DNA of 37,792 bases, from the NCBI GenBank assembly GCA_018715465.1, contig DVLN01000151.1:1-37792 (forward strand), given 5' to 3'. The notes under the pieces were generated by a model, which had not been told where the DNA came from, made no database searches, and saw only the letters and a list, made by a program, of their open reading frames with translations. Position numbers and translations under genes: made by a program. The DNA is from Candidatus Faecivivens stercorigallinarum (GTDB taxonomy: Bacteria > Bacillota > Clostridia > Oscillospirales > Ruminococcaceae). Positions 29,710-35,971 of this stretch are shown here, one piece after another; the stretch's first letter is position 1, and each line of letters starts with the position of its first letter.

Positions 29710-29738
29710 TTGACGGAAACAGAAAATGCCAGTATAAT
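29710..29738 (+). promoter_or_regulatory. SigA promoter of the BMP-phosphoesterase operon
   Basis: TTGACG (29710-29715), 17-bp spacer, TATAAT (29733-29738). Confidence 0.87.
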
Positions 29739-29803
29739 AAAGCCAGGACGATACAAACAGATACGTCCGATTTCAGAATGTAAGGTAAGGAAGTGTTCTG
29801 AGT

Positions 29804-31735
29804 ATGAAAATGGAAGAATACGAGAAAGCCTATAAACTCGGGAAGAAAGAATATCAGTCCCGGCTTCTGAATGGCCAGCTGCCTACACTGGAAGTACTGG
29901 ATGAAATTCTGCCCGACAGCACCAGCTACTCGGAGGTCCCCCTCGGCGTTGTCCAGATCCCGATGCGCCAGATTGTCGGCACTAAAACGGCCGGCCGGAG
30001 CACCGCTTTTGCAGCCAACTTCATGCCGATTCTCGGCCCCGCAACCGAGTTTGCCGCCAAATGGCAAAACCTCAGCGTCATTCAGGAAAATGAAGGATTC
30101 CGCGATCCCGTCAAGGCATACGAATATATGAACCGGTTTTATATCCAGGAGGGGAACAAACGGGTCAGTGTCATGAAATACTATGGCGCCTACTCGATTC
30201 CCGGCAATGTAATCCGCCTGATCCCCAAACGGACAGACCAGCTGGAAAATAAAATCTACTACGAATTTCTGGATTTTTACCGGGTAACCGGCATCAACTA
30301 TATCTATTTCAGCAAACTGGGCGGTTTTACCAAATTGCTGACCGCCGTCGGAAAAGGAGCCGAAGATGTCTGGACCAACGACGAAAAGGTCACTTTCAAC
30401 TCGGTATTTTTCAGCTTCCAGGAAGGTTTTTATCAGAACGGCGGCGAAAAACTGGCATTGACCGATGGTGATGCTTTTCTGCTGTTCCTCGACCTGTACA
30501 GCTATGATTCGATCAAGGATAAGACCCGCAGTGAGATTATGGCATTGACCGCCTCCTGCTGGGAAGAGTTTGTCCTGCAATCCAAGCCTTATCAGGAAGA
30601 GATTGATCTGAAACTCAACCCAAGCCAACACGAAAAACCACTGCTCGACCGGCTGCTCCCCCTGAACACCACCCAGCACCTGAAAGTCGCCTTTATCTAT
30701 ATGCGCACCCCCCAGAGCTCAGCCTGGACCTATGCGCATGAGCTTGGCAGAACCCATATCAGTGCGGTTTTTGAGGACGAGATCGACACCTTCACCTACG
30801 AAAACACCACGCAGGAAAACATCGACGCGGTCCTCGAGGACGCCATCGGCAAAGGTGCTGATATCATTTTCACCACCTCCCCTGTCTTTGTACAGGCAAG
30901 TGTCAAGGCGGCGATTGCCCATCCGACCGTCAAGATCCTCAACTGCTCGCTGAATACCACCCACCGGTATATCCGCACCTATTATTCCCGGATGCACGAA
31001 GCCAAGTTCCTGATGGGGGCGATCGCAGGCGCGCTGTCCAGCAATGATAAAATTGCCTATATCGCCGACTATCCGATCTACGGGACAATTGCCAGCATCA
31101 ATGCCTTTGCATTGGGTGCCAAGATGATCAACCCGCGGATTAAGGTGCATCTGCTCTGGTCGACGCTGAAGGACTTCAATCTGGACGAAGAACTGCTGCG
31201 GCTGCATCCCGACTGTTTCCTGGGCAGAGATATGGTTATCCCCGAAAAAGGATACCGGGATTTCGGCCTGATCCAGCTGGATGAGGACGGCAATACCATC
31301 AGCCAGGCGATGCCGCTCTACAACTGGGGTACCTTCTATGAAAAGCTGATCCGTACTGTGATGGACGGGACCTGGAAATACGACGAAGACAAGAAAGACA
31401 GCAAAGCCATCAGCTACTGGTGGGGACTGTCGGCTGACGTCGTCGACGTTGTCTACTCTGCCCGTATCCCGATCGGAACCAAACGGCTGGTTGAACTGCT
31501 CAAGGACACCATCCGTACAGGGCATTTTGACCCGTTTGCCGGCGTGCTCTACGCCCAGAACGGAATCGTCCAGAGCGACCCCAACCGTTCACTGACGCCG
31601 GAAGAAATTGTCAACATGGATTGGCTGGCGGAAAATGTCATCGGCAGCATCCCGACAGCAAATGAGCTGATGGACCATGCCGTGCCGGTCACCATCCAGC
31701 AGGGCGTTGAGACACGGAAAGAGGAAACTGTCTGA
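29804..31735 (+). CDS. BMP/PnrA-like periplasmic-binding-fold protein without signal peptide, with a long N-terminal region carrying a ParB-like motif
   Basis: C-terminal half BMP-like (GKGADIIFTTSPVFVQASVKAAIAHPTVKILNCS, EAKFLMGAIAGALSSNDKIAYIADYPIYGTIASINAFALGAKMINPRIKVHLLW); N-terminus MKMEEYEKAYKLGKKEYQ has no signal peptide; YIQEGNKRVSVMKYYGAYSIPGNVIRL resembles the ParB/Srx GxxR region. Confidence 0.82.
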   Translation: MKMEEYEKAYKLGKKEYQSRLLNGQLPTLEVLDEILPDSTSYSEVPLGVVQIPMRQIVGTKTAGRSTAFAANFMPILGPATEFAAKWQNLSVIQENEGFRDPVKAYEYMNRFYIQEGNKRVSVMKYYGAYSIPGNVIRLIPKRTDQLENKIYYEFLDFYRVTGINYIYFSKLGGFTKLLTAVGKGAEDVWTNDEKVTFNSVFFSFQEGFYQNGGEKLALTDGDAFLLFLDLYSYDSIKDKTRSEIMALTASCWEEFVLQSKPYQEEIDLKLNPSQHEKPLLDRLLPLNTTQHLKVAFIYMRTPQSSAWTYAHELGRTHISAVFEDEIDTFTYENTTQENIDAVLEDAIGKGADIIFTTSPVFVQASVKAAIAHPTVKILNCSLNTTHRYIRTYYSRMHEAKFLMGAIAGALSSNDKIAYIADYPIYGTIASINAFALGAKMINPRIKVHLLWSTLKDFNLDEELLRLHPDCFLGRDMVIPEKGYRDFGLIQLDEDGNTISQAMPLYNWGTFYEKLIRTVMDGTWKYDEDKKDSKAISYWWGLSADVVDVVYSARIPIGTKRLVELLKDTIRTGHFDPFAGVLYAQNGIVQSDPNRSLTPEEIVNMDWLAENVIGSIPTANELMDHAVPVTIQQGVETRKEETV

Positions 31736-31749
31736 AAGGAAACATCGAC

Positions 31750-32343
31750 GTGAAAATTCTTGTACTCGCCGACCAGGAGTCGGAATATTTGTGGGATTAC
31801 TTCGAACGGAGCAAATTTGAGGGAATCGACCTGATTATTTCCTGCGGTGATCTGGACGCGGGGTATCTCTCCTTTTTGGCAACGCTGTTGCCGATACCGG
31901 TTTTATATGTCCACGGCAACCACGACACCAAATATCAGACCAGACCACCGGAAGGCTGTATCTCCATTGACGGTGAGTATTATATCTATAAAGGAGTCAG
32001 GATCGTCGGTCTGGGCGGTTCAATGCGCTACCGCAAGGATGTTGAGAACCAGTATACCGAACGGGAGATGGCAAAACGTGTGCGCAAGCTGCTGCTTCCA
32101 CTGGTTTTTCACCGGGGATTTGATATCCTGGTCGCTCACGCCCCCGCAAGAGGCGTCAACGACGGGGAAGACCTGGCCCACCAGGGCTTCAAGGTCTTCC
32201 GCCGGCTGATCTGCCATTACCACCCAAAGTATTTTGTACATGGGCATATCCATCAGAACTATACATCCCGTTTCAAACGGTATGACAAGCTGGATGATAC
32301 GACGGTTGTCAACGCCTACGAGCGCTGCATCATTGAGATCTGA
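31750..32343 (+). CDS. Calcineurin-like metallophosphoesterase
   Basis: KILVLADQES, SCGDLDAGYL, YVHGNHD, LVAHAPARG, FVHGHIH; GTG start 14 nt after the BMP gene stop. Confidence 0.9.
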   Translation: MKILVLADQESEYLWDYFERSKFEGIDLIISCGDLDAGYLSFLATLLPIPVLYVHGNHDTKYQTRPPEGCISIDGEYYIYKGVRIVGLGGSMRYRKDVENQYTEREMAKRVRKLLLPLVFHRGFDILVAHAPARGVNDGEDLAHQGFKVFRRLICHYHPKYFVHGHIHQNYTSRFKRYDKLDDTTVVNAYERCIIEI

Positions 32344-32345
32344 AC

Positions 32346-32394
32346 AAAAAAGAAGAGCTGCACCCGGTAAAACGGCGTACAGCTCTTCTTTTTT
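32346..32394. terminator. Bidirectional terminator between phosphoesterase and sigE genes
   Basis: AAAAAGAAGAGCTG ... CAGCTCTTCTTTTTT. Confidence 0.92.
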
Positions 32395-32422
32395 GTCATC
32401 TGGTCAGATCTGCTCACCCAGC

Positions 32423-33205
32423 TTAGATCTGCTCACGCAACTCTACAGCAAGGCGTTTCAGAATCCGTTTTTCCAAACGGGATATGTAGGACTGAGAAAT
32501 TCCGATACAGTCAGCAACCTCCTTCTGGGTATGTTCCCGTCTGCCATCCAGCCCAAAGCGAAGTGTCATGATCTGCTGTTCCCGTCCCGAAAGCCGGGAA
32601 ACTGCCGCACGAAGTGCCGCACGTTCCGCCTCCGCTTCCAGATCCTCACTGACCGCATTTTCCGGCGACCCAAGCACATCGCTGAGCAGCAGCTCGTTGC
32701 CATCCCAGTCGACGTTGAGCGGCTCGTCAAACGATACCTCGCTCTTTAACCGGGAGGTTTTGCGCAGGTGCATGAGGATTTCATTTTCGATACAGCGGGA
32801 AGCATAGGTTGCCAGCTTGATCTTTTTGTCGGGCGAAAAGGTATCAACCGCCTTGATCAGCCCAATTGTGCCAATGCTGGTCAGATCCTCCAGCGAATTT
32901 CCACCTCCTTCAAACTTCTTTGCGATATAGACGACCAGCCGCAGATTTCTTGTAATCAGCTGTTCCTTGACTGCCGGATCGGGCAGCCGGACGATCATCG
33001 CCTCTTCTTCCTCCCGCGTCAATGGCGGAGGCAGCGACCCGCCCCCGGTCATATAATAGAGTACATTTTCCGACTGGTCATGCTGCCGGCTCAGCTGCCT
33101 GTTATTTGCGCTGCTGTCCGGCTGGCGCCGTGCGCCGGTAGTCAGCAGGCCTGCAAGCAGGTTCCCGATCTGCCGCATGATCAGATGCTGCATTGAATAA
33201 TTCAT
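32423..33205 (-). CDS. sigE: RNA polymerase sporulation sigma factor SigE (pro-SigE)
   Basis: [94 protein letters not shown]; preceded by spoIIGA. Confidence 0.95.
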
Positions 33206-33216
33206 ACCACTCCTCC

Positions 33217-34077
33217 TCAGTCCAATGGGCCTACCACCCCATCCACCCTTTCACCGGCAACTGGACTAAACGCCTCCTCCCCCAATGCCAGCACACAGTC
33301 AAAGGCCGCTCCGTCCCGCTGCCGGACCAATACCGCCTCTATCCCGGCCAGCAGCCGTTCCCCCGCGGCTGTACGGCAGGGCACCATCCGCAGTTTCCCC
33401 CGCCAGCGTCCCGGCTTGGCAGCTGCGGAAAGGCTGGTACAGCAGTTGACCAGATCATCCGGCCAAACACCGGATACTGCCTGCAATCCGACCACCGCAA
33501 CCGGCCTGCCAAAACAGGTCAGGCGGTTTCCTGTATCAATCAGCAGTCGGACAGCAGCTTCCCGTCCGCAGCAGCGGACGATAAACCGCTCGGTCAGCTG
33601 CTCAGGCATCCGTTTTTCAAACAGCCAGGAAAACCCCTTGGCGGCCGCACAGCCTGCGACAGCCGCCGCTGTCAGCCAAACTGCCGACAGATGGAAATAG
33701 ACGACACCGTTTCTGACCGCCATCCCCGGCGGGGCCAGCAATGCAGCAACCGCGATCATCCCACCTGCAAACAGGACACTGACCAGAAAAAAGGTCAGCG
33801 TCAGCCGTACAAAGCTCCGTCCCGGCTGTCGGCCAAAGGTGATCAGTACAATCCCTGCTGCAACTGCTAGCCGTACCACTGTCAGCACTGCCGGTGAAAG
33901 CCCGGGCAGCAGCATCACCAGTGCTGCTGCACCCCCCGCAAGGCTTCCGGCAGCAATACGCCCCCGTCCGGCGTGCCGATGGCCGAGCAGCGCGGTACAG
34001 CGGAGCATCGCCCAGGTCAGCATCAGATTCAGCGCAACCAGTACATCCAGATAGATGGTCTGCCCAGCCAAAGTCAT
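33217..34077 (-). CDS. spoIIGA: Sigma-E processing peptidase SpoIIGA
   Basis: Hydrophobic N-terminal half, [16 protein letters not shown] aspartic-protease-like motif, immediately upstream of sigE; start placed at [17 protein letters not shown]. Confidence 0.88.
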
Positions 34078-34106
34078 TCCCCCATTCCGCCTCCCGGACA
34101 CCCACC

Positions 34107-34140
34107 AGTATACGCCAACCGGACTGGAAAAATGGTCGAA
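34107..34140 (-). promoter_or_regulatory. Candidate Spo0A-controlled spoIIGA-sigE promoter
   Basis: GGTCGAA (plus, 34134-34140; 0A-box-like, one mismatch to TGTCGAA) 21 bp upstream of a minus-strand TATACT -10 (34107-34112). Confidence 0.5.
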
Positions 34141-34156
34141 GGAGCAGACCGGCAGC

Positions 34157-34188
34157 AAAAAAACTGCCTTCCGCAGAGGAAAGGCAGT
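34157..34188 (-). terminator. Terminator after the HTH-zinc-ribbon gene
   Basis: minus strand ACTGCCTTtCC ... GGAAGGCAGTTTTTTT. Confidence 0.9.
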
Positions 34189-34197
34189 CAATCGTAA

Positions 34198-34635
34198 TTA
34201 TTTATTTTTCCAGCGCTTGAGGGTCGGCATAAAGGATTCAAGATAAGCACGGGCGGCCTGTTTGTCCCCCTGCATATGAGGCAGACAAAATTCGATCATC
34301 TCCTCCATCGTACAGTCTTCCAGGAATTTTCCGTTATCATAACACCATTTGCAATAGTCCTCATTCAAAGTGCCATCCGCCTCGCTGCCAAGGATATCAT
34401 CCTCTAGCGGCATTCCACAGCACTGGCAGATCAGCTTTCTGGGCGACCCGAGCAGGGTATTGACTGATACGCCGAACAGTCTGGACAGGGCAAGCAATGT
34501 ATCCGCACTAGGAGTCGTTTCACCTGTTTCCCAACGGGAAACAGCCTGACGGGTCACAAACATCCGCTCGGCAAGTTCTTGCTGGGTCATCTGCCGCTTA
34601 CTGCGCAGCGACACAAGTACTTCTGCAAATTTCAA
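34198..34635 (-). CDS. HTH (XRE) regulator fused to a putative zinc-ribbon domain
   Basis: RSKRQMTQQELAERMFVTRQAVSRWETGETTPS HTH; CQCCGMPL...EDYCKWCYDNGKF zinc ribbon. Confidence 0.92.
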   Translation of the reverse strand: MKFAEVLVSLRSKRQMTQQELAERMFVTRQAVSRWETGETTPSADTLLALSRLFGVSVNTLLGSPRKLICQCCGMPLEDDILGSEADGTLNEDYCKWCYDNGKFLEDCTMEEMIEFCLPHMQGDKQAARAYLESFMPTLKRWKNK

Positions 34636-35756: not shown

Positions 35757-35807
35757 ATCGATTCACCTCCATGAATTTGGTTTGTGATCCGAAAAGCTAT
35801 TCTTACG

Positions 35808-35925
35808 AAAAAACCTTCCCGCACTCGAAAGACACGGAAAGGCAGAAATATCACTATTTCGCTTATTCCTCGGCAAGCTGCGGCTCAGCCGCAATTATAC
35901 CGGTTACCCGGAACTTGCTGTCTTT
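35808..35925 (-). promoter_or_regulatory. L10 leader (ribosomal protein leader) with overlapping intrinsic terminator
   Basis: Minus-strand AAAGACAGCAAG ... CTTGCCGAGGAATAAGCGA ... CCGTGTCTTT closes the conserved L10 leader; CCTTTCCG ... CGGGAAGG TTTTTT overlaps its closing stem. Confidence 0.85.
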
Positions 35926-35941
35926 GGATCACAGCTTGTAT

Positions 35942-35971
35942 ATTATACCACACGCAGGGTATTGTTGTCAA
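35942..35971 (-). promoter_or_regulatory. Internal SigA promoter for rplJL
   Basis: minus strand TTGACA (35966-35971), 18-bp spacer, extended -10 TGGTATAAT (35942-35947). Confidence 0.88.

Follow-up and report, generated by a model that had tools for sequence, protein, structure and literature searches.

The open reading frame at positions 29804..31735 (+ strand) of the window, by which we mean the whole analysed stretch of 37,792 nucleotides from Candidatus Faecivivens stercorigallinarum, encodes a fusion of a predicted ParB/Srx fold with a BMP receptor domain and is paired with a gene for a calcineurin-like metallophosphoesterase (MPE). The actual unit is the pair of ParB-fold gene and MPE gene, whose C-terminal sensor is exchangeable (BMP, Fe-S or none). 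We propose that the two genes of the window encode a cytoplasmic two-protein metabolite switch in which a metabolite-gated NTP module acts on the MPE, a reading that we hold with evenly balanced confidence.

Conservation of the Gene Pair and Exchange of the Sensor

The MPE gene was located directly 3' of the fusion gene at 94 of 96 loci with a median gap of 9 bp, a count whose weight comes from the other families, because 80 of the surveyed loci are mostly close Lachnospiraceae relatives that carry little weight alone. One of the two exceptions is cut off by the end of its contig; in the genome of the second, the MPE gene sits on a different contig. Nine loci, all from a single clade, have the MPE gene inverted, so that it converges with the fusion gene, and still adjacent to it. 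Thus, the adjacency is not just operon inertia. No third conserved gene was detected beside the pair, all other gene clusters being present at no more than 20 of 101 loci.

Remote relatives of the N-terminal part, searched in 399 genomes of the phylum, carry Cys clusters or 4Fe-4S domains and no BMP domain. These Fe-S relatives adjoined an ortholog of the MPE in ten of ten cases, and three further Fe-S forms and two short forms did so as well. Since relatives with Fe-S domains or without any sensor also adjoin the orthologous MPE, the ParB-fold/MPE pair is the core of the arrangement. A search that started from the MPE yielded 25 strong orthologs, 20 of them encoded beside a ParB-fold gene (5 BMP, 13 Fe-S and 2 short forms). 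For the remaining five a ParB-like gene was present elsewhere in four genomes, and none was found in one. Among 300 genomes, 16 contained both genes, one only the ParB-fold gene and one only the MPE gene, which corresponds to a Fisher probability of 2e-24 when species relatedness is ignored and several draft assemblies are included.

In the MPE tree the BMP-partnered enzymes form one clade (support 100/99), and the two short-form MPEs are its likely sister (93/83). This topology is consistent with a single gain of the BMP domain by a pre-existing ParB-fold/MPE pair. The initial annotation had asked whether the pairing of the fusion gene with the phosphoesterase is conserved. This pairing was recovered in many families and extends to the Fe-S and short relatives; the deeper unit, in which the BMP domain is one of several C-terminal attachments to the ParB fold, had been missed by reading the sequence alone. 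Unlinked ParB-fold proteins of about 125–157 amino acids with little beyond the fold were observed at loci L187, L188, L212, L213 and L214.

The Fusion Gene and Its Surroundings

The fusion gene starts with ATG and encodes a protein of 643 amino acids. It is preceded by a putative sigma-A type promoter, a consensus match (TTGACG-17-TATAAT, 11 of 12 positions) at 29710..29738 (+). After an intergenic gap of 14 nt follows the MPE gene (31750..32343, +; 197 amino acids, GTG start). Between the MPE gene and a convergent sigma-factor gene a terminator hairpin with a U-tract, and an A-tract on the opposite side, is located at 32344..32396 (+). The calculated fold of the region 32340-32400 has a free energy of -32.7 kcal/mol (z -9.3), and a simple terminator scan did not pick up the hairpin. 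The order of consensus promoter, two genes and strong terminator described earlier, with the phosphoesterase 14 nt downstream, was therefore confirmed.

The claim that the protein lacks a signal peptide and a lipobox also held. Neither these nor any other export signal were found in the 643 residues on inspection of the upstream frame and of hydropathy, the highest 19-residue hydropathy being 1.42 at residue 354, with no membrane segment. A missed upstream start with an export signal is ruled out by the in-frame TAA at 29786-29788, five codons 5' of the ATG. The fusion protein is predicted to be cytoplasmic.

The only Pfam family matched by the fusion protein was Bmp, PF02608 (1.8e-15, 57.2 bits at a cut-off of 24.1), and databases would label the protein as transport. 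It shares this domain with the BMP/PnrA binding proteins of ABC transporters and differs from them in the missing signal peptide or lipobox and in its surroundings: as had been noted, neither an ABC permease nor an ATPase gene adjoins the fusion gene according to the window ORFs and Pfam. It is the sole BMP gene of the 2.16-Mb genome assembly. The closest records to the window are the Ruminococcaceae MAG UBA1448 (96% identity) and Candidatus Faecivivens (91%). An Rfam scan of the window revealed neither a purine riboswitch nor any further Rfam element close to the fusion gene, and the same scan of eight relatives gave two matches only (T-box and 6S), both on the other strand and kilobases away. 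Control of the gene by such an element was consequently dropped.

The neighbours of the pair are a GH32-like ORF (assigned by eye), an MBL-fold protein, a sigma factor and SpoIIGA. The latter two, SpoIIGA (PF03419, 3e-36) followed by a 260-amino-acid sigma factor that is likely SigE, occupy 32423-34191 (-) and converge with the MPE gene, the terminator lying between; their adjacency to the pair is not kept in the family. Further along, 34198-34635 (-) encodes a 145-amino-acid XRE-type HTH protein with a C-terminal zinc ribbon (PF12674, 2e-29), and an L10_leader (RF00557, 53 bits) was found at 35799-35945 (-) upstream of rplJ/rplL-like ORFs.

The N-Terminal Module

A ParB-like motif is present at residues 98–140 of the fusion protein. 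It contains a C-motif-like loop, GFRDP (residues 98–102; 30095..30109, +), placed by homologue alignment and by an hhalign register with the G..qP of ParB, and the P-motif EGNKR (residues 116–120; 30149..30163, +), placed by homologue alignment, which includes the GxxR of ParB folds. Among 40 homologues G98, E116, G117, K119 and R120 are invariant and P102 is conserved in at least 90%; the G and R of GxxR do not vary between the BMP, Fe-S and short forms. The Pfam family ParB_N (PF02195) did not match the fusion protein even at E<1. The motif alone is thus no proof of a ParB fold, and structural and profile evidence was required.

The AlphaFold model of residues 1–292, calculated from the alignment of 40 homologues, reached a mean pLDDT of 86.9. 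A Foldseek search with this model against the PDB returned Noc (7nfu) first and also found sulfiredoxin (6ky4; TM 0.67 over 88 residues) and SbnI (5ujd; 2.6 Å over 91 residues), all with a probability of 1.00. Model and search place the ParB/Srx-fold core at residues 42–141 (29927..30226, +). The model continues with a helical extension (residues 142–260; 30227..30583, +), whose counterpart in relatives partly matches DUF4032 (PF13224), and with a flexible linker of low model confidence (residues 261–290; 30584..30673, +). A profile built from BMP, Fe-S and short forms retrieved canonical ParB/Noc genes that neighbour parA. When the N-terminus of the BMP form was compared directly with ParB, profile against profile, hhalign gave the right register at an E-value of 0.0015 and a probability of only 17, and the N-terminal sequence profile found no match among PDB chains. 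The Fe-S relatives also stayed at or below 18 bits against PF02195 (cut-off 26.3); we ascribe the miss to the reach of this Pfam model and not to the fold. According to structure model and profiles, the N-terminus is a ParB/Srx fold, as the motif had initially suggested, and a chance motif is ruled out by the Foldseek match together with the retrieval of ParB/Noc.

The module shares the fold, the GxxR motif and the fusion to a further domain with ParB/Noc, SerK, SbnI and Srx (PMC12704722). It differs from these proteins in that neither an HTH domain nor a neighbouring parA gene was detected (Pfam, window ORFs), so a canonical ParB partition protein was rejected. Tested relatives need the Arg of GxxR to bind NTP (PMC12704722), and by analogy the N-terminal module may bind an NTP. 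The main text of a 2025 survey of ParB-CTPase fold fusions mentions neither BMP nor phosphoesterases, and its domain-centric search used PF02195 (PMC12704722), the family to which the window protein has no match.

The BMP Domain and Its Pocket

Pfam, profile, structure model and pocket mapping assign residues 291–617 (30674..31654, +) to a BMP/PnrA receptor domain of the AtzT/3s99 type. Residues 289–617 matched AtzT (6pi5) at 2e-32 and the Brucella protein 3s99 at 7e-31, and the full-length model was in agreement (TM 0.78–0.80). Judged by sequence and model, its nearest relatives are therefore the purine-nucleobase binders AtzT (guanine) and 3s99 (adenine) and not the nucleoside binders. The window protein departs from both in lacking a signal peptide and adjoining ABC genes, in its fused ParB fold and in its changed pocket.

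AtzT binds guanine with a KD of 110 nM; Tyr45 and Trp194 sandwich the base, which Ser97, Glu165, Asn218 and Asn220 hold in place (PMC6834077). At AtzT positions 45/97/165/194/218/220 the window protein has W S G K R M, compared with WSEWHT in a sister clade and WSEWHD in 3s99. It does not keep the purine-pocket residue set of AtzT/3s99 at these six positions, Glu165, Trp194, Asn218 and Asn220 of AtzT being replaced by G, K, R and M. All 40 family members keep the stacking Trp308. In the sister clade (n=11, MPE gene mostly convergent) the pocket is close to that of 3s99, with E/D at 165, often W at 194 and H/Q/N at 218, and these proteins plausibly bind a purine base. The window clade has G at 165 in 29 of 29 members, mostly K at 194 and R/K at 218. 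Its pocket is remodelled and more basic, with purine contacts lost and Lys/Arg gained, and its ligand is perhaps anionic or phosphorylated.

The initial annotation had assumed an intracellular nucleoside/nucleotide sensor. The intracellular part agrees with the predicted cytoplasmic location; the assumed ligand fits less well, because the nearest relatives bind nucleobases rather than nucleosides and the base contacts are replaced in the window clade. Overall the initial reading is partly supported, and its proposal that the phosphoesterase acts on a related phosphorylated ligand stays conjectural.

A BMP fold deposited as a regulator and not as a transport protein is Med (2hqb; TM 0.77), the comK transcriptional activator. 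With about 283 residues, Med has no room for a ParB fold, and we know of no MPE partner for it.

The Metallophosphoesterase

The MPE matched metallophosphoesterase families only (Metallophos, PF00149, 1e-10). The metal ligands D8, D34, N57, H130, H166 and H168 are kept, and six of the seven usual ligands are invariant. The motif-I His (of DxH) is lost throughout the MPE clade and replaced by Glu in the window, so catalysis could be altered. In profile searches against the PDB the closest solved relatives were Dbr1 (3e-5) and MPPED2 (1e-4), followed by LpxH (0.01); similarity to the first two is weak, the Dbr1 matches covering about 120 residues, and the window enzyme lacks the motif-I His. Because these are the nearest solved relatives, a phosphodiester substrate is plausible. 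A likeness to RecA among single-sequence PDB matches was rejected as chance repeats of a concatemer with 6 bits per stretch. In two genomes of one genus an adenine deaminase gene abuts the MPE ortholog (L161 4438-6321 and L162 7117-9045), which independently, if modestly, hints at purine metabolism.

Proposed Mechanism and Alternatives

In the proposed switch the ParB/Srx-fold module would bind a nucleoside triphosphate. Binding of a small purine-like or anionic metabolite to the BMP domain would alter the nucleotide state of this module, which in turn would control the dedicated MPE through contact, and the MPE would cleave a phosphoester from the metabolic branch to which the BMP ligand belongs. 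The C-terminal sensor would be swapped between lineages, with BMP here, Fe-S clusters elsewhere and none in the simplest forms. We infer the contact between ParB-fold protein and MPE, the direction of control, the ligand identity and the MPE substrate; adjacency of the genes shows neither contact nor direction of control. Some observations speak against the model: the pocket of the window protein has G, K, R and M in place of the purine contacts of AtzT, the MPE has lost its motif-I His throughout the clade, and ParB-fold proteins of about 125–157 amino acids also occur unlinked to an MPE.

The gene pair could instead encode a kinase and a phosphatase. In this case the ParB/Srx module would be a SerK/SbnI-type kinase that acts on small molecules under the control of the BMP or Fe-S domain, and the MPE would take the phosphate off again. 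An opposing paired enzyme would account for the co-occurrence of ParB-fold and MPE genes. SbnI, a structural neighbour in the Foldseek search, is a free serine kinase with a heme-responsive C-terminus and resembles the window protein in its ParB/Srx module and possible sensor domain; it has another sensor, lies in a siderophore gene cluster and, to our knowledge, has no MPE partner. An Fe-S-type relative matched the NCBIfam SerK model at 1.8e-4, yet its 20.8 bits are far under the cut-off of 380 bits. Some relatives carry DGNHR or DGHHR, whereas the BMP form has EGNKR rather than DGxHR. A counterpart to SerK's catalytic Glu was not identified, and the likeness to SerK/SbnI is one of fold only. 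We consider a kinase-phosphatase pair unlikely, though worth weighing.

An NTP-gated clamp or RNA/DNA-binding regulator acting with a nuclease related to the RNA lariat debranching enzyme appears quite improbable. DNA binding is a frequent role of the ParB fold and Dbr1 leads the PDB profile matches of the MPE, ahead of MPPED2; however, these Dbr1 matches are weak and short, HTH domain and parA neighbour are absent, and the presence of a metabolite receptor or of Fe-S domains points rather to metabolism. A transport remnant, in which a BMP binding protein without signal peptide scavenges purines in the cytosol and the MPE is unrelated, is already disfavoured and very improbable despite the clear AtzT type of the receptor domain, as the fusion is kept over many families with invariant ParB-fold residues and the MPE pairing survives both inverted orientation and absence of the BMP domain.

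If the metabolite switch is real, an apparent transport protein becomes a cytoplasmic sensor, and a partner enzyme is added to the ParB-fold switches, so far mostly known from DNA segregation. It would also make a metabolite signal of common gut Clostridia, among them Blautia, Dorea, Roseburia and their relatives, accessible to experiment. Since one enzyme is common to three sensor states, their comparison should reveal the function of the MPE. Each part is known; the architecture, the partnership and the sensor exchange appear undescribed. In a literature from which subscription journals are largely absent, no paper was found that joins a BMP family ABC transporter with a metallophosphoesterase or combines DUF4032 with ParB. 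More tentative, and to our mind somewhat doubtful, is the wider proposal of an undescribed bacterial signalling class, in which a ParB-fold NTP switch would couple exchangeable sensors, such as a metabolite receptor or Fe-S clusters, to a single phosphoesterase of its own. Such a class would occur widely in gut Clostridia and be concealed by annotation as transport.

At a further locus (L202, 912-2018) an Fe-S-type ParB-fold gene precedes a weak match, below the cut-off, to PF02965 (the activation domain of B12-dependent methionine synthase) and a homocysteine methyltransferase-like ORF.
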